From positions 59,867-123,866 of the IMG/VR virus record IMGVR_UViG_3300033144_006696: a stretch of DNA of 64,000 bases, one strand, 5' to 3'. This document shows, piece by piece, positions 40,440 through 48,685 of this stretch. Position 1 is the first letter of the stretch. Each line of letters opens with the position of its first letter. Made by a program: the position numbers and the translations under genes. Below the pieces are notes generated by a model. That model worked only from the letters and a program-made list of their open reading frames with translations, did not search any database and was not told where the DNA came from. This DNA is from a virus.

Positions 40440-41366
40440 CTATTTTCGACGACGACGTTTCTTCCGATCAACAGGACGTTTTCTTTGAACTTTTTTCTTT
40501 GGAGGATCATCATCAAATGGCATATCATCAGGCATATCATCAGGCATATCATCAGACATATCATCAGGCATATCATCAGGCATATCATTTTCCAGAAGAT
40601 TCATAATCTTCAAAGTTGCTTTAAGCTCTTTTTTAATAATATCATATTCAGGATGCATATTCACAATATTATCAAGAGGGAAAGTAGAATCAAGAATTCT
40701 GTTTGGTATTGGTGATTCACGTTCTACAAAGCGATGACCCAAGAATTGTGTGTTTTCCATTCCAGAACCTTTACGAGTCCATGCCAATGATTTGCCTGTA
40801 TCTGGATGTGAGAAATTTTCAAATCCTCCACCTCTTGGAAGTTGTGCAATTTCTTCAATCTTCTCTTCCATGAAGAAATGAGATGCTTCAAAAATCTGTA
40901 CTCCTTTCTTCTCATCTTCTTTTGTAGCGTGTGACCAGATCAAATATACAACTCGGTGCTTGGCAACAAGTTTTTTCCAATCTTTCTTATCAAGACGATT
41001 TGCTTTGATAAATTCACAGATAGGACAAGGTTCACCAAAATTTTCATATGGACAGACATATGGTTTTTTCATTTTTCCAACATTCTGATGTACAAACAAA
41101 TCAAGAACATAATCAAGATTGCCTTCAGGTGTTATAGGTTTAAGTTTTTCATCAAATGGCATATTTGAACCAGCTTCAAACGGTAAGATATCAAGAAGAT
41201 GTTTCCCTTCTGCACACTTCCAGAACTCTACTCCTTCTGGAACCTTATTTTTATCAAATATTGTTGGATATCGTCCCCCTCCACTAGTCTTTTTTGTTCC
41301 TGCATTATGACGTTTTTGAAGAGTTCTTTCACCTTTGTTTTTTGCCATTCTATCGCGAAACGACAT
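40440..41366 (-). CDS. gp32-like single-stranded DNA-binding protein
   Basis: 308 residues. Basic N-terminus (LAST-like, cooperative binding), OB core with a zinc site 'VCPYENFGEPCPICEF', and conserved 'LIWSH'. The C-terminal tail has six MPDD or MSDD repeats encoded by a 12-bp minisatellite (about 40510-40590), then a basic end (RPVDRKKRRRRK). The acid repeat probably replaces the acidic tail of T4 gp32 that recruits replication partners. Confidence 0.85.
   Translation of the reverse strand: MSFRDRMAKNKGERTLQKRHNAGTKKTSGGGRYPTIFDKNKVPEGVEFWKCAEGKHLLDILPFEAGSNMPFDEKLKPITPEGNLDYVLDLFVHQNVGKMKKPYVCPYENFGEPCPICEFIKANRLDKKDWKKLVAKHRVVYLIWSHATKEDEKKGVQIFEASHFFMEEKIEEIAQLPRGGGFENFSHPDTGKSLAWTRKGSGMENTQFLGHRFVERESPIPNRILDSTFPLDNIVNMHPEYDIIKKELKATLKIMNLLENDMPDDMPDDMSDDMPDDMPDDMPFDDDPPKKKVQRKRPVDRKKRRRRK
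40508..40593. repeat. 12-bp minisatellite in SSB tail
   Basis: About seven copies of GGCATATCATCA (on +), one with a point change. It encodes repeated Met-Pro-Asp-Asp in the SSB C-terminus; copy number could vary between relatives. Confidence 0.8.
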
Positions 41367-41897: not shown

Positions 41898-42067
41898 ACC
41901 ATATAACCTTCAAGTTCTTCTTTCTCTACAAACCAAGGCTCAATTTCCACTACTAAATCATCATAGTCATTAATTACTGATTTTGGTATCCAAACATCTC
42001 TCTCATCAAAATAAAATAAAACCGCATCATCTGTTTCATGACTAACACCATCATGGCAAATTTCCAT
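41894..42067 (-). CDS. Small acidic protein
   Basis: 57 residues ('MEICHDGVSHETDDAVLFYF', 'VVEIEPWFVEKEELEGYMV'). Its start overlaps the clamp loader stop (TAATG) and its stop overlaps the mediator start (ATGA), so it is a coupled member of the replication operon. Function unknown. Confidence 0.6.
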   Translation of the reverse strand: MEICHDGVSHETDDAVLFYFDERDVWIPKSVINDYDDLVVEIEPWFVEKEELEGYMV

Positions 42068-44169
42068 TATTCACCCCCAAACACAGATTTATAACAAGCT
42101 AAAGTTAATCCTGCTTTCCCAGAATCAAAGAAATTATTCTCAAAATTTTCCATCATGAAAAATATATTGTCATCACCATTATTAAGCATGATAGAATTCA
42201 TGTACATTAATATTGGCCTTCTTGCTGATTCACCATCACCTTTAAAATCTTTTAGGATTTTTTTAATCTTTGCCCATTTTGTTTTTGGAGGCATATTGTA
42301 ATGTGAAAGAGTTCTGCAAATTTCAATAACCTCAGTTTCACTGGTTCCTGCTGATTTAAGGGTATTAATGGCACGTTCAGAATCATCCATATCAATTACT
42401 TGATCAAGAAGTTTCAATGCTTGCCCTGCTGAACCATCTGCAAGCTCAATGATGTGATCTCTTACATCCATTGAAATACATTCGCGTTTTTCTTTCTTTA
42501 AAATCATTCTGAAAAGTTTTTGAAGATCAGAACTTTTCAGAAATTCAAGTTCATACGTGTGACATCTACGTTTTAAAGTGGATTTTAACGCTTCTGGATT
42601 CGTTGTACACAAAATCCAATGCACATATGCAGGAGGTTCTTCAAGTGCCTTAAGTAAACTTTCCTGTGCAATTTTTGTTATAGAGTGACAATTGTGAACC
42701 ATATTTCCATTTGCAATATAAGAATGATTTTCTTTTACTTGCAAATCATAGAACTCTACAAAGCCTTGATCTCTTTCTTTATGTCCAATAATACTTGAGA
42801 AAGATTCATCATTACTTCCTCGTTTGTAAATCTCAACACTTTCCACCCTTTCCATCGAAGAAGAGACTCTTTCTTTTTGTCCAGTTTTCGTCTCTGAATA
42901 GAGTTGTGTCCCTTTCCGTCTATTTCTATTGCAATCTTTAATTTTGGATTTCCCAAATCCACTTTGTAAGAAGTTGGAATTCTTTTTTTGCGGCACCAAA
43001 CTTCCCGTTGTTTCATAGGCAAATGATCTGCTGTTTTCACTGCAACTTCTGATTGCCAAGCTAATGCAGCCATTAATAATTTCTGTGGTTCTGTCAACTG
43101 ACCATTCCCACCACGCTTTCCTTTCCAAACATGAAGAGTTCCATTTACTCTTTTTGTTTCTATTGCCTTCTCTTTCACACCAGAAAGATTCATCGGATTG
43201 TTTTCCTTCATACGTTCTGATGATTTTTGTGCAAATTCCTTGCCTTCTTTTGTTTGATAAAAATCTAAAGACTTTTTGCTTATTTTTTCCCTTGTCTCTT
43301 TTGATCGTCCAGTTTTCTTTACACAACTTTTTGCATATTTCCCTGAACAACTTTTTGAGCAAAATTTTCGTGTCTTTCGATCTGTGGTAAATATCTTTTT
43401 GCACCATAAACAACTTTTTGAATCTAAAACACTTTTTTCTTTTAATGATTCTCTGTAAAATGCTGAACAACTGTTTGAACAAAACTTTCTGCTTTTGTTC
43501 TTCGGAAAAAATTCCTTTTCGCAAAATTGACATATCTTTTTGTAAGTCATTTTGTACCTCGCATAGTGAACTTGTGTTAATCATAGGTTCACTATACCTT
43601 ACAAGAAGTATGTTTGTCAAGTCTTTTGCTTTAATCCAATTACCATCAAGATAATACTCCTGATCTTCAGAACAAAATGTACTTGACCCGTCAGATTTAT
43701 TGATTTTAATAACCCTACTTAAAGGAACTTTGTTAATAAATACTTTCTCAACAATATCAGTTCCATTTAAGTTAAAAACTGCGTCATTAACTTTAATTAA
43801 ATCAATTCTCTTTTGTCCTTCTGAAGTTGGTATTGAAGTACAAGCACTAAAGCACTCATCTAATAGAATAACTTTTTTAGTTCCTGATAAAGGTGCAAAC
43901 TTCATTGATTGAATTAATCCCCTTACCCCATCAATACCTCTATCATCAGCAGCATTTAATTCTTTAAAATCAGCATCAGAACATTTTAAAGCTCTTTTGA
44001 TAACTCTTCCCATACTGGTTTTCCCGGTCCCAGATCCCCCAGTGAATAAAAATGCAGCAGGAGGATTATCTCTTTTTAAAACAGCAGAGAGACTTTTTTT
44101 AACATCATCATTTCCAATAAAAGTTTTAAATGATTTTGGTCTGTAAAATGTTGCTAATCCTGCCATCAC
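42067..44169 (-). CDS. Clamp loader subunit (DnaX/gp44-like AAA+) with intein
   Basis: 700 residues. The N-extein has Walker A 'GGSGTGKTS' (44-52) and ends at Walker B 'VILLDE'. The intein covers residues 106-493, and the C-extein resumes with 'CHSITKIAQESLLKALEEPP', sensor 1 'CTTNP' and the arginine/zinc-less lid domain. The mature AAA+ protein of about 312 residues loads the sliding clamp (48700-49698). The open frame continues unbroken across an out-of-frame endonuclease gene inside the intein (42756-43550). Confidence 0.9.
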   Translation of the reverse strand: MMAGLATFYRPKSFKTFIGNDDVKKSLSAVLKRDNPPAAFLFTGGSGTGKTSMGRVIKRALKCSDADFKELNAADDRGIDGVRGLIQSMKFAPLSGTKKVILLDECFSACTSIPTSEGQKRIDLIKVNDAVFNLNGTDIVEKVFINKVPLSRVIKINKSDGSSTFCSEDQEYYLDGNWIKAKDLTNILLVRYSEPMINTSSLCEVQNDLQKDMSILRKGIFSEEQKQKVLFKQLFSILQRIIKRKKCFRFKKLFMVQKDIYHRSKDTKILLKKLFREICKKLCKENWTIKRDKGKNKQKVFRFLSNKRRQGICTKIIRTYEGKQSDESFWCEREGNRNKKSKWNSSCLERKAWWEWSVDRTTEIINGCISLAIRSCSENSRSFAYETTGSLVPQKKNSNFLQSGFGKSKIKDCNRNRRKGTQLYSETKTGQKERVSSSMERVESVEIYKRGSNDESFSSIIGHKERDQGFVEFYDLQVKENHSYIANGNMVHNCHSITKIAQESLLKALEEPPAYVHWILCTTNPEALKSTLKRRCHTYELEFLKSSDLQKLFRMILKKEKRECISMDVRDHIIELADGSAGQALKLLDQVIDMDDSERAINTLKSAGTSETEVIEICRTLSHYNMPPKTKWAKIKKILKDFKGDGESARRPILMYMNSIMLNNGDDNIFFMMENFENNFFDSGKAGLTLACYKSVFGGE
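42691..43854 (-). mobile_element. Intein in clamp loader carrying out-of-frame endonuclease gene
   Basis: 388 residues in the host frame, inserted in the Walker B DE|C site. Block A 'CFSACTSIPT', block B-like 'CSEDQEYYLDGNWIKAKDL' (Gln where His is usual), block F 'FYDLQVKENHSYI', block G 'MVHN' followed by Cys. Between them the host-frame translation is a long basic sequence without family resemblance. It overlaps the endonuclease gene in another frame. The split between intein halves occurs exactly at the gene ends. Confidence 0.85.
42756..43550 (-). CDS. Vsr/EDxHD-type homing endonuclease nested out of frame in intein
   Basis: 264 residues in a frame shifted from the clamp loader. It has GAGGT five bases before its ATG. 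Two or three zinc knuckles ('CQFCEKEFFPKNKSRKFC', 'CLWCKKIF...KFCSKSC'), a NUMOD-like linker and a C-terminal Vsr/DUF559-like nuclease ('YKVDLGNPKLKIAIEIDGKG', then H, and 'WKVLRFTNEEV'). This family is known as homing endonucleases in phage introns and fractured split-intein genes. Its stop lies at the start of the intein C-terminal block. Confidence 0.9.
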   Translation of the reverse strand: MTYKKICQFCEKEFFPKNKSRKFCSNSCSAFYRESLKEKSVLDSKSCLWCKKIFTTDRKTRKFCSKSCSGKYAKSCVKKTGRSKETREKISKKSLDFYQTKEGKEFAQKSSERMKENNPMNLSGVKEKAIETKRVNGTLHVWKGKRGGNGQLTEPQKLLMAALAWQSEVAVKTADHLPMKQREVWCRKKRIPTSYKVDLGNPKLKIAIEIDGKGHNSIQRRKLDKKKESLLRWKGWKVLRFTNEEVMMNLSQVLLDIKKEIKAL

Positions 44170-44920: not shown

Positions 44921-47900
44921 TTAATACATTTTATTTATTTGATCAATATCTATCTCCTCCATAAAGGCAAAATTACCTCCTTCCTCTTTTAATTTTGATA
45001 ATTCAAATTCCATTTCAATAGGAACAATTAACCATTTGAACTTATTTTTAAGATTTTTAACAATATCATTTACACCATTTAAAATAAATTTGATTTCTTC
45101 TTTATGTAGGTTAAAAATTATTGAATCGTGCACTTGGCCAGTTATTTTGGTTTTACATTTATTTTTTCTGAGGAATTTTTCAACTTCGATCAAAGTAAAT
45201 AATAATAAATGAAAACTGGTAGATTGTATAGGAAAATTGGTGCATTGCTTCTTATTCATGTATCCAGTAAATCTGAATCCAAAATATGTTTCAATAAAAC
45301 CATACCTTTGATAAGACTCAACTATGTTCTCTTTCCATTCTGTATAAACTGGAAATCTTTCTTTCCACATTTTACTTTCAATATTTTTACAATGTTCAAG
45401 GAATGAACCAGGAGTTGGTTCATATTTTATCATTTCCCCAAGTTCATATATTCCTTGACCTTCAAGCCAATGTTTTACTGTTTCACCATTTGGAAGTGTT
45501 AATCCAGCTTCTACTACATTTTCCCATAAATTCGGAGCACATGACCCAAACCAATCACCATAAAATTGAGCAAATGTCCAATTATTCTTGGCATAAAATC
45601 GAATATTTTTGATCATTTTTATTTGAGCTTTGCTATACCCAGGATAATGTTTATTCATTAGTTTAAGTGGTAATTTAAACAATTCCATTGCCAGATCACG
45701 ATGCATGTCCCCCTGAGTTACGTCAAAAATAAACGTAGGGTCTTTATGATATGCTGCCGAAGTTATTATTTCAGCACCAGAAAAATCACACTCACACAAA
45801 ACACAATTTTTTGAAGGAACTATGCCTTTTCGTACTAATGCTTTAATTTCGGGATTTCTGGCAGGAAGATTTTGGTGATTTGGCTTACTGGATGAATTAT
45901 GCACACAAATTTCATTTACAAAAAAGTTATGACAATCCTCAACTTCAATATCATAAACATCAGTTTTTTTACCTATCCACTCAATCTTAGTTATTATATG
46001 ATTTCCAGGTTTAAACTCTCCGAATTGATTTCTCCATTTCCTCTTTGAATCAATTCCATAATAATCATATAATTCAAGTAATCTATAATGGTTATGACCA
46101 AGAATATCTTTAACTTTTGCCCTTCCAAGTTTTGATAAGTCTTCAAGTCTTTGTTTTGATATAAATTTATCATGTTTATCAAAACATAAGTTTATTTTTT
46201 TCCAATTAATTTTATTAATTACAAGATATTTTTTGAATGTACTAAAATCTATTGAAAATTTATCTGCTGTTTTTTTTGGTTTGCCAGCACATTCCATTAA
46301 CATACAAACACACTGATCTTTTGATAAATTAAATGATCGTGGATTATCTTTGCCTCTTTTTATTGTGTGATCATATCTTCCTTCTTTCCATCCTTTCTTA
46401 ACTGCTTTAATATTATTTATTCTTGACTTCTTTGAACATATAGTATCTTTACTGTGTAACTTTGCATGACTTGATTTTGTATGTTTTTCAAGATTTAATG
46501 GATTATGATTAAAATGATTTTTATCTTTATGGTGAACAATGTCACCACATGTCAATTCACCTATAAAATTTTCATAAATTAATCTATGCTCTAATACGCC
46601 CTTTCCACCTTGTAAATGTCCTGTAAAATTTAATTTATCTCCACTTCTTTTACATGCTAAAGCCCTACAATTTCCATCCTTTGCTTTACTTTTTTTATAG
46701 TGTTGTTTTTTTAAGAGGTTTTGAGCTTCTACATACTTACCATTTATTAATCTAACTTTATGCTCAGGTGTGCAATCAAAATGTCCATGACCACCTTTTC
46801 TATAATAATAAACACGAATTATTTCCCTGTGTCCTGTTTTTCCTTGCCATAATACTTTTTTAATTGCAGGATTTAATTCATTATCAAAACAATATACATA
46901 ATCACCAACTTTAATGTCTTTTATTGGGATTCCTTCTGGATGTAATTCAAAATCTTTCGCCACAAGAACTTTTTCATATTCAGCAATACAGGAACGGTAA
47001 CTTACTGGAATATGAAGATCCCAAAACGGATGAATAATACCTTTATAAACTTCTCTTGCAAATTGTGCAAGATAGGTTCCTTTTGCTTTCTCAAGCTTTT
47101 TCATTTGAATAAGTTTATCAACAAATGGCAAATTTAAAGATTCAAGAGTCAATGCATCTGTTTTGTAATTATTATTTGCTGTATATACTGGAGTTTTACC
47201 AAGCACTTCATAAAAAAGTTTGCCAAGATCAGTATTTGATGTAATGTTTATTTCTTTTCCAATTTGTTCTTTAAATTTTTTTGCTTCTCTACCTTCAGTT
47301 AATTCCTTCTTTGTTATGTCAATTCTTTCTTTTAATTCAACATTTGTCTTTTTGTAATACTCAGTATTAACAGTGATACCATTGAGTTGTATAGTTCCCA
47401 TTGTACGGATTCCACGCATAAAGAACTTAAAAGCATTATGTAATTTATCCATTTTTGAAAAATAAGCTTTTTGATCATTATAAAGCATGTATGTGAAAAT
47501 ACAATCAAGACCATTATAAACCAAAAGATCTTTTAAAGGTACTTTCTCTACTGTATTAAACTCTGTGCCTTTTTTTGATTTTAGAAAAGGTGATATTGAG
47601 TCATCGTAAGGGCGAACACCATATCGTACAAATGCTTGAAACTTCAAACCTATTGCAGCAGCTCTATTATCAGTGCATTTTTGACCAATCATCGTACAAT
47701 GAATTACATTTCTTATACGAGTTCCAATTTGAATGGCTGACCACATGTCCTCAAATTTTGCATTGTGCGCTATCTTTTCAATATCTTTATGTGCAAGAAT
47801 TTCTTTCCATAATGCTTTGATTTCACTTAATTCACTTTTTGTCCAGAAAGAATTAAAATCAAATGGAAATGCATATGCTTTTTTTGCTGATATTGCAAGA

Positions 47901-48685
47901 GCTATCGTAACTATTTTGTGTCCATTACGATATGGTTTCAAACCAGTTGTCTCATAATCAAAAGCAATTTTTTGTTTTCTTTTTATGACTCGTTTTAAGA
48001 GTGATTTAACGTCGATAAAGTTTGTAAGAGTGACAACATACTTCTCAAAGTTTGTTTGCTTCTTATACGTCTTATTTAAACATGTATTAATGAGTTTTAG
48101 ATCTCGTTTAAACGTAGAATGTAGATTTTTGTCTTTATCTTTTTTAACAAGTTCCCATGGATGAAATAATGGAAGTACATAACACTTAAATTTTTCATCT
48201 GGAATTTGAAATGCACGCCAACGCATTATTTTACGATTGGAAAAGTTTTCACCAAATACAGATGTTATTGCAATACTCCCAAGTAGTACAATAAGTTTTG
48301 GTTTAAGTTTAAGAATTGTCCTTTGTATCATTGGATAACAACAAGAAATTTCTTTATGTGAAGGGATTCTATCATGTGGAGTTCTACAATTTACAGCTCC
48401 AATTTTCCAACAATCCTTATGCAGTGAAATTTTTATATGTCTTAGTTCTTTTTTTAGGAAATCACCATTTTCACCAACAAGATGAATCCCAAACTCATCT
48501 TCTTCTTGTCTTGGAGCTTCCCCAATTATCAGAATCCTTTTTACACCTTCACCAGTAACATCTAATTTAGGATGCAAACAATTTTTATATAATCCACATT
48601 TTCCACAATCAGGAGTTAATTGGTTTATATCAATTTTTTTCTTTGTTTTTTTAACTAATTCACTTTTGGTAAAAAATCCAACCAC
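44921..48685 (-). CDS. UDG-DNA polymerase I fusion with HNH intein
   Basis: 1254 residues. Residues 24-205 form a family 4-like uracil-DNA glycosylase domain: FeS-type 'CGKCGLYKNC', 'GEAPRQEEDEFG', 'LLGSIA' and 'LFHPWE'. A 3'-5' exonuclease follows (D243xE in 'FDYETTGL'), then the PolA domain: motif A 'CDFSGAEIITSAAYH', motif B around 'FYAKNNWTFAQFYG', motif C 'GQVHDSIIF'. The intein (566-930) lies just before 'SSSKPNHQNLPA'. The mature replicative enzyme has about 889 residues. No 5' nuclease domain is fused; it is encoded at 35931-37940. Confidence 0.9.
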   Translation of the reverse strand: MVGFFTKSELVKKTKKKIDINQLTPDCGKCGLYKNCLHPKLDVTGEGVKRILIIGEAPRQEEDEFGIHLVGENGDFLKKELRHIKISLHKDCWKIGAVNCRTPHDRIPSHKEISCCYPMIQRTILKLKPKLIVLLGSIAITSVFGENFSNRKIMRWRAFQIPDEKFKCYVLPLFHPWELVKKDKDKNLHSTFKRDLKLINTCLNKTYKKQTNFEKYVVTLTNFIDVKSLLKRVIKRKQKIAFDYETTGLKPYRNGHKIVTIALAISAKKAYAFPFDFNSFWTKSELSEIKALWKEILAHKDIEKIAHNAKFEDMWSAIQIGTRIRNVIHCTMIGQKCTDNRAAAIGLKFQAFVRYGVRPYDDSISPFLKSKKGTEFNTVEKVPLKDLLVYNGLDCIFTYMLYNDQKAYFSKMDKLHNAFKFFMRGIRTMGTIQLNGITVNTEYYKKTNVELKERIDITKKELTEGREAKKFKEQIGKEINITSNTDLGKLFYEVLGKTPVYTANNNYKTDALTLESLNLPFVDKLIQMKKLEKAKGTYLAQFAREVYKGIIHPFWDLHIPVSYRSCIAEYEKVLVAKDFELHPEGIPIKDIKVGDYVYCFDNELNPAIKKVLWQGKTGHREIIRVYYYRKGGHGHFDCTPEHKVRLINGKYVEAQNLLKKQHYKKSKAKDGNCRALACKRSGDKLNFTGHLQGGKGVLEHRLIYENFIGELTCGDIVHHKDKNHFNHNPLNLEKHTKSSHAKLHSKDTICSKKSRINNIKAVKKGWKEGRYDHTIKRGKDNPRSFNLSKDQCVCMLMECAGKPKKTADKFSIDFSTFKKYLVINKINWKKINLCFDKHDKFISKQRLEDLSKLGRAKVKDILGHNHYRLLELYDYYGIDSKRKWRNQFGEFKPGNHIITKIEWIGKKTDVYDIEVEDCHNFFVNEICVHNSSSKPNHQNLPARNPEIKALVRKGIVPSKNCVLCECDFSGAEIITSAAYHKDPTFIFDVTQGDMHRDLAMELFKLPLKLMNKHYPGYSKAQIKMIKNIRFYAKNNWTFAQFYGDWFGSCAPNLWENVVEAGLTLPNGETVKHWLEGQGIYELGEMIKYEPTPGSFLEHCKNIESKMWKERFPVYTEWKENIVESYQRYGFIETYFGFRFTGYMNKKQCTNFPIQSTSFHLLLFTLIEVEKFLRKNKCKTKITGQVHDSIIFNLHKEEIKFILNGVNDIVKNLKNKFKWLIVPIEMEFELSKLKEEGGNFAFMEEIDIDQINKMY
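45896..46990 (-). mobile_element. Intein with HNH endonuclease in DNA polymerase
   Basis: 365 residues. It starts at C566 ('CIAEYEKVLVAKDF'), with 'IPIKDIKVGDYVY' and block B 'GHFDCTPEHKVRLI'. An HNH segment ('HRLIYENFIGELTCGDIVHH', 'HFNHNPLNLEKH') lies in the middle. Block F 'DVYDIEVEDCHNFFV' and block G 'CVHN' precede Ser+1. It interrupts the template-binding 'SSSKPN' region, a known polymerase insertion site. Confidence 0.9.

Follow-up and report, generated by a model that had tools for sequence, protein, structure and literature searches.

Can a homing endonuclease (EN) gene lie out of frame inside an intein while the reading frame of the host protein stays open? This question is raised by a clamp loader gene in the window, by which we mean the whole 64-kb stretch of DNA that was analysed, part of a virus record of 123,866 bases. 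The initial annotation had described a clamp loader frame of 700 codons without a stop, and its coordinates, 44169 to 42067 on the minus strand, were found to hold. The ORF starts with a GTG at 44169, with an ATG at 44166, and is divided as follows (L-numbers denote individual related loci).

42067..44169, minus strand: host ORF, a phage DNA polymerase clamp loader with an intein inside, 700 codons, stop-free (PF13177, PF00004 and PF14890; PHROG 5846 and 168)
43855..44169, minus strand: N-extein, the last residues of which are Walker B ...ILLDE (alignment with the intein-less L253, L254 and L257)
42691..43854, minus strand: intein of 388 residues in the host frame, from Cys1 to Asn388, followed by a +1 Cys (Hint fold by AF2 and Foldseek)
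43591..43854, minus strand: N-terminal Hint part, residues 1-88 (pLDDT about 95)
42691..42864, minus strand: C-terminal Hint part, residues 331-388, ending in VHN (pLDDT about 95)
42067..42690, minus strand: C-extein, the first residues of which are CHSITK (sequence, domain matches and alignment)

The intein interrupts the Walker B motif, with the junctions LLDE/CFSACT...NMVHN/CHSITK (slashes mark the splice points). A profile search matched it to the gp41-1 intein (E=3e-18), which was also the best match among solved structures and which we take to come from the work of Dassa et al. in 2009; the Hint model matched 6qaz in Foldseek (E=6.5e-7). The score against PF14890 was 24.2 bits, under the curated cut-off of 35.8, and many relatives score above this cut-off. 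The AF2 model of the intein as read in the host frame was confident in residues 1-88 and 331-388 only, with low confidence in residues 93-330. The intein blocks had been called clear at both ends, and this is true of the catalytic residues Cys1, His387, Asn388 and the +1 Cys, all of which are present, but not of block B, in which Gln65 (codon 43660-43662) replaces the His found in 30/30 aligned relatives. The block-B His is not strictly required in every known intein. The assignment of the window copy to the intein family stands despite Gln65, and the activity of this copy is doubtful, as judged from its sequence: because of the substitution, it may be impaired, splice poorly, or contain a sequence error. 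Elsewhere in the window, a predicted ssDNA-binding protein (40440-41366, minus strand) was seen to have C-terminal DMPDD-type repeats, which correspond to QAYHQAYH repeats on the opposite strand.

Within the intein, a second gene is read in another frame of the same strand.

42756..43550, minus strand: nested EDxHD homing endonuclease ORF, 264 aa plus stop (PF04480; I-Bth0305I profile; AF2 and Foldseek)
43556..43560, minus strand: Shine-Dalgarno-like (SD) GAGGT of the EN, five bases upstream of its ATG (sequence)

The earlier description of a 264-residue Vsr/EDxHD-type EN with its own GAGGT was thus confirmed, with the ORF running from 43550 to 42756. The host frame equals the EN frame + 2, and the third frame contains 24 stops. 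The N-terminus of the EN carries zinc-finger-like CxxC motifs, and residues E168, D198, E209, D211, H215, D224 and K227, predicted to be catalytic, are invariant across 41 ENs. The AF2 model of the EN (pLDDT 93) had 3r3p, the structure of I-Bth0305I, as its best PDB match in Foldseek (prob 1.00, E=3e-3, TM 0.63 on target), and the profile match to 3r3p had E=3.7e-4. Sequence and model both identify the gene product as a predicted EDxHD homing endonuclease of I-Bth0305I-like fold. Cleavage and homing by the EN are likewise predicted, with indirect support from alleles with and without the insert, described below.

The initial annotation held that an open shadow frame of this length was unlikely by chance, and this view was upheld by calculation. 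With the EN protein fixed, the exact probability of an open host frame was 3.8e-21 if codons are used as in the phage and 5.0e-12 if they are used as in the EN itself, and the synonymous-codon shuffle that had been proposed as a check gave an expectation of 20.9 host-frame stops in the window EN, compared to none found. A host-frame stop arises from a T-ending EN codon followed by AA, AG or GA. It was found that 16/16 of the NNY codons ahead of these dinucleotides in the window EN end in C, whereas the remaining NNY codons comprise 67 ending in T and 6 in C.

Stop statistics were obtained for 76 ENs with <60% identity. Zero host-frame stops were found in 73/76, whereas the number expected in these ENs was 908 by synonymous codon shuffle and 1341 by flank codon usage; in the other phase, 1589 stops were observed versus 1485 expected, as in unconstrained sequence. 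The proportion of T-ending NNY codons before AA, AG or GA was 0/1300 in the divergent ENs, compared to 66% elsewhere in the ENs and, for codons followed by these dinucleotides in the host frame but outside the EN, 55%. The free-standing relative L090 had 39 stops versus 33 expected. These results support the interpretation that the host frame is held open by selection and not by chance, and that this selection is mostly against stops alone, the 3′ end of the EN excepted. The avoidance of stops is observed; its cause would be the purging of stops that destroy the replication protein. Because a third-position change from T to C is always silent, the EN + 2 phase of the host frame allows every stop to be purged with the EN protein unchanged, and this may be why no other phase was seen. 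Alternatively, the fixed phase might reflect common descent only.

Relatives were searched for in viral contigs, bacterial genomes and isolated phages with the EN protein alone as the query, and so the search was blind to the host frame. The host frame was stop-free across the EN in 142/150 classified loci (some contigs are in both sets), with the phase identical throughout, and the intein C-terminal motif followed the EN in the host frame in nearly all of the 142 open loci. The other eight were L090, L103, L175, L177 and L204, which lack the intein motif; L222 and L235, which are fractured; and L022, which has one stop. Homologues with a closed host frame had been named as a finding that would refute the claim; those that reside in inteins were found to be open, save L222, L235, L022 and L009, the last of which has a frameshift.

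Several loci merit individual mention. The lone stop of L022 is near the middle of the EN in a locus that is otherwise typical of the nested arrangement, and comparison of L009 with L008 revealed a deletion near the 3′ end of the EN of L009 that disrupts EN and host frame alike, due to either mutation or an assembly error. The ENs of L037 and L052 were considered to be broken, but this was rejected as a start-finding artefact, and both are intact. At L175, the free-standing EN relative sits immediately upstream of a helicase gene, with a slight overlap; genes of this type carry nested inteins at other loci. A second intein further upstream in the host ORF is suggested by a LAGLIDADG match in L070 and by a CxxTHN-like junction in L064.

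The host proteins of the nested ENs are DnaX-like AAA+ clamp loaders, ResIII/UvsW helicases, and SNF2-type proteins or helicases, and the insertion point is nearly always at the Walker B DE or a few codons past it; for example, the intein of the close relative L010 is two codons further (DEAH/CF) than that of the window (DE/CF). The same phage has a second nested EN outside the window, at L002 (G000:C1:9551-10102), in the intein of a UvsW-like helicase with an open host frame. The helicase EN at L002 clusters with the ENs from the clamp loaders of the window and L011 (97), but its C-terminus resembles that of helicase-type ENs. This mismatch between core and C-terminus, judged by eye, suggests a chimera resulting from exchange of ENs between inteins. 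The nested EN was annotated in 0/6 phage records (L167-L172), in which the host ORF is the sole annotation at the locus, and so this class is probably under-counted.

The suggestion that there is selection for dual coding proved to be correct in part: stops are avoided along the EN and its 3′ end is bifunctional, but most of the shadow peptide is unconserved. Substitutions between the window and L010 at the three codon positions were 0.21/0.15/0.38 in the EN and 0.38/0.21/0.18 in the shadow frame. Hence the comparison by codon position, also proposed earlier, yielded the pattern of the EN as a coding frame, whereas the shadow frame gave only that pattern shifted. Divergence at EN four-fold sites was approximately equal to, or slightly below, that at extein four-fold sites. 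Because the substitutions follow EN codon positions and model confidence is low in the middle of the intein, most of the shadow peptide is interpreted as filler, mostly unconserved, basic, and about 240 residues in length.

The situation is different at the end of the EN, where one more feature was recognised.

42757..42864, minus strand: dual-coding 3′ stretch, in which the EN C-terminus overlaps Hint residues 331-366, including RVESVE (AF2 model and codon statistics)

The stop of the EN had been placed exactly where the C-terminal block of the intein begins. This was incorrect, because the EN ends at intein residue 366, and its last ~35 codons double as coding sequence for the conserved Hint strand RVESVE; residues 331-366 are confident in the Hint model, with a strand at 333-342. 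In the host frame, RVESVE is read from the same bases (42822-42848) as GWKVLRF of the EN. The EN glycine at this site is encoded by GGG in 52/63 loci, compared to 269/886 of the other EN glycines (p=2e-16) and to 9/67 in non-intein relatives (p=6e-16), a codon choice that sets the host Val. Similarly, the EN leucine codon at this site, which when ending in G sets the host Glu, does so in 51/58 versus 31/69 (p=3e-7). The four-fold synonymous conservation of the EN rose from 0.34 to 0.55 within the 3′ stretch, as calculated from pairs that are not independent. The dual coding is asymmetric: stops are avoided over the whole EN, and amino acids are constrained in both frames at the 3′ end alone.

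How the EN is translated was evaluated from signals around its start. The SD match at the first EN ATG was better than at later ATGs (4.19 versus 2.51 bases, p=4e-14). Upstream of the ATG, the EN frame stays open for 30 nt in the window and for a median of 16.5 nt overall. The strong SD combined with the short open stretch favours internal initiation over frameshifting, and we infer from the SD that the EN probably starts at its own ATG. Immediately upstream there is a structure that may affect access to this site.

43561..43597, minus strand: RNA hairpin with an 11 bp stem (arms 43597-43587 and 43571-43561), abutting the SD of the EN (folding z-score -3.4)

The hairpin abuts or contains the SD in many clamp-loader inteins. 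Its enrichment over controls is genuine, though moderate. Because it is not universal, we take it to be an accessory and not a defining part; translation of the EN could possibly be coupled to melting of the hairpin by host-frame ribosomes.

A kinship with fractured split inteins had been suggested, and it was borne out by L222 and L235, which look like fractured forms of the same EN family. In both, the N-half has a stop near the start of the EN, and host-frame stops within the EN number 20 and 27, respectively. The C-half could begin at an ATG within the EN that follows the last stop by about 7 codons and precedes the end of the EN match by about 37, with the VESI strand retained. The window locus itself is not a fractured split intein, because no stop closes its host frame within the EN. 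L222 and L235 form one clade (99) beside the nested L194 (84), and nested forms are present throughout the tree, which has many weak forks. The sequences fit a change from nested to fractured, although on an unrooted tree the direction of change is not proven. The window locus had also been called a possible uninterrupted intermediate. It is indeed related to the fractured form, but the term is too weak, because nesting is a widespread and stable state and the fractured pair is a single clade beside a nested relative.

Alleles with and without the insert were found in Vibrio phages. The helicases of phages CP-T1 and vB_VchM-138 are 96% identical, with an insert of 353 codons in CP-T1 alone and a difference at the +1 codon (Cys versus Ala), and the insert of 1.088.O has an exact empty site in 1.024.O, at lower identity. 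These are better evidence of empty sites than the nearest intein-less clamp loaders (L253-L256), which were judged to be weak in this respect because they have DEAH and not DECH and are 65% identical.

Taken together, these results lead us to favour, with a probability of roughly 85%, a mobile intein in which the EN is a separate gene, nested out of frame and with its own start, and in which splicing and homing are presumed from sequence comparison. In the model that we propose, ribosomes in the host frame would read the N-extein, the N-terminal Hint part, the filler that is mostly the shadow of the EN, the C-terminal Hint part and the C-extein as one chain, from which the Hint domain would excise all that is between the exteins. 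Other ribosomes would initiate at the EN's own ribosome-binding site to produce a free EDxHD nuclease, which would cleave the Walker B codons of alleles that lack the intein, after which the entire unit would be copied in. A replication protein would be lost to any host-frame stop, and such stops would be purged by silent T-to-C changes in EN third positions, and the 3′ end of the EN would serve both as nuclease C-terminus and as Hint strand. Should a start for the C-half arise within the EN, this constraint would lapse, giving a fractured split-intein gene. Against this model stand the long, unconserved and basic linker, which might hinder folding, the Gln in place of the block-B His, which may mean that the window copy splices poorly, the absence of the hairpin from some relatives, and the chance that the phase is fixed by common descent alone. 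More broadly, we think it somewhat better than an even chance that these loci represent a widespread, undescribed class of mobile intein, with the EN overlapping in a fixed second frame, a bifunctional 3′ end, and a role as a reservoir for fractured split inteins.

The Gln65 substitution, at a position that is His in all of the aligned relatives, is also the basis of a different reading, in which the window copy is decaying: the EN still works or is passing, splicing has been lost, and the clamp loader comes from another source. We regard this as rather unlikely, given that Cys1, His387, Asn388 and the +1 Cys are intact and both frames are open. It is less probable still that programmed ribosomal frameshifting joins the N-terminal Hint part to the EN, yielding an intein fusion in place of independent initiation. 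In its favour, the EN frame continues without a stop for a small distance upstream of the ATG; against it, the stretch available for a shift is very short, and the SD match at the first ATG is strong.

The two remaining explanations concern the open host frame. The first is that the shadow peptide is a functional domain under amino-acid selection from end to end. In its favour, conservation of EN four-fold third bases somewhat exceeds that of the exteins, and the last ~35 codons are clearly dual; however, the tracking of EN codon positions by the substitutions and the low model confidence of residues 93-330 make full dual coding very improbable. The idea that the amino-acid and codon composition of the EN, or an assembly frameshift in an ordinary in-frame intein EN, accounts for the open frame can practically be discounted. 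No support for it was found beyond the richness of the EN in Lys, Arg and Glu, which limits T-ending codons. Chance and composition were rejected by the calculations in which the EN protein and codon usage are held constant, and by the free-standing control L090; an assembly frameshift was rejected because homologues have the same arrangement, which occurs in 142 loci.

In the literature searched, which covered recent preprints incompletely, no report was found of an out-of-frame EN inside a splicing intein, and this appears to be a largely undescribed packing of a mobile element. It would provide a large natural series for the study of overlapping genes, with the free-standing and fractured relatives as built-in controls, and a testable route to natural split inteins. 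In the fractured genes reportedly described by Dassa et al. in 2009, a free-standing EN of the Vsr/EDxHD type separates the two halves of a split intein. They resemble the window locus in having phage replication or repair hosts and a Vsr/EDxHD EN as its own gene in an intein locus, but their host gene is split in two, whereas the host frame in the window is uninterrupted through the EN. The ShiLan domain (Arsenault et al. 2025, PMC11855218) is an HNH EN read out of frame with the phage DNA methylase that contains it; a splicing domain was not found in it, and its authors expect the insert to be retained in the protein (PMC11855218). Like the window EN, it is read in a different frame from its host, within an insertion that leaves the host frame free of added stops, and has a mobile distribution, but it is HNH without a splicing domain, whereas the window EN is EDxHD within a Hint intein. 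I-Bth0305I, the EDxHD homing endonuclease of a group I intron (PDB 3r3p; PMC3943268), has a catalytic fold and motif in common with the window EN and differs in being intron-encoded, whereas the window EN is inside an intein and overlaps Hint coding sequence. A 1254-aa ORF in the window (44921-48685, minus strand), with a uracil-DNA-glycosylase-like domain, a 3′-5′ exonuclease and a family A polymerase, contains a conventional in-frame HNH intein, and so both EN styles are present within one genome. Canonical inteins of this kind also combine Hint and EN in one insert, but their EN is in frame and is spliced out with the intein, whereas that of the window is a separate, overlapping gene, which would represent a third mode of pairing between intein and EN, beside in-frame fusion and separate genes.
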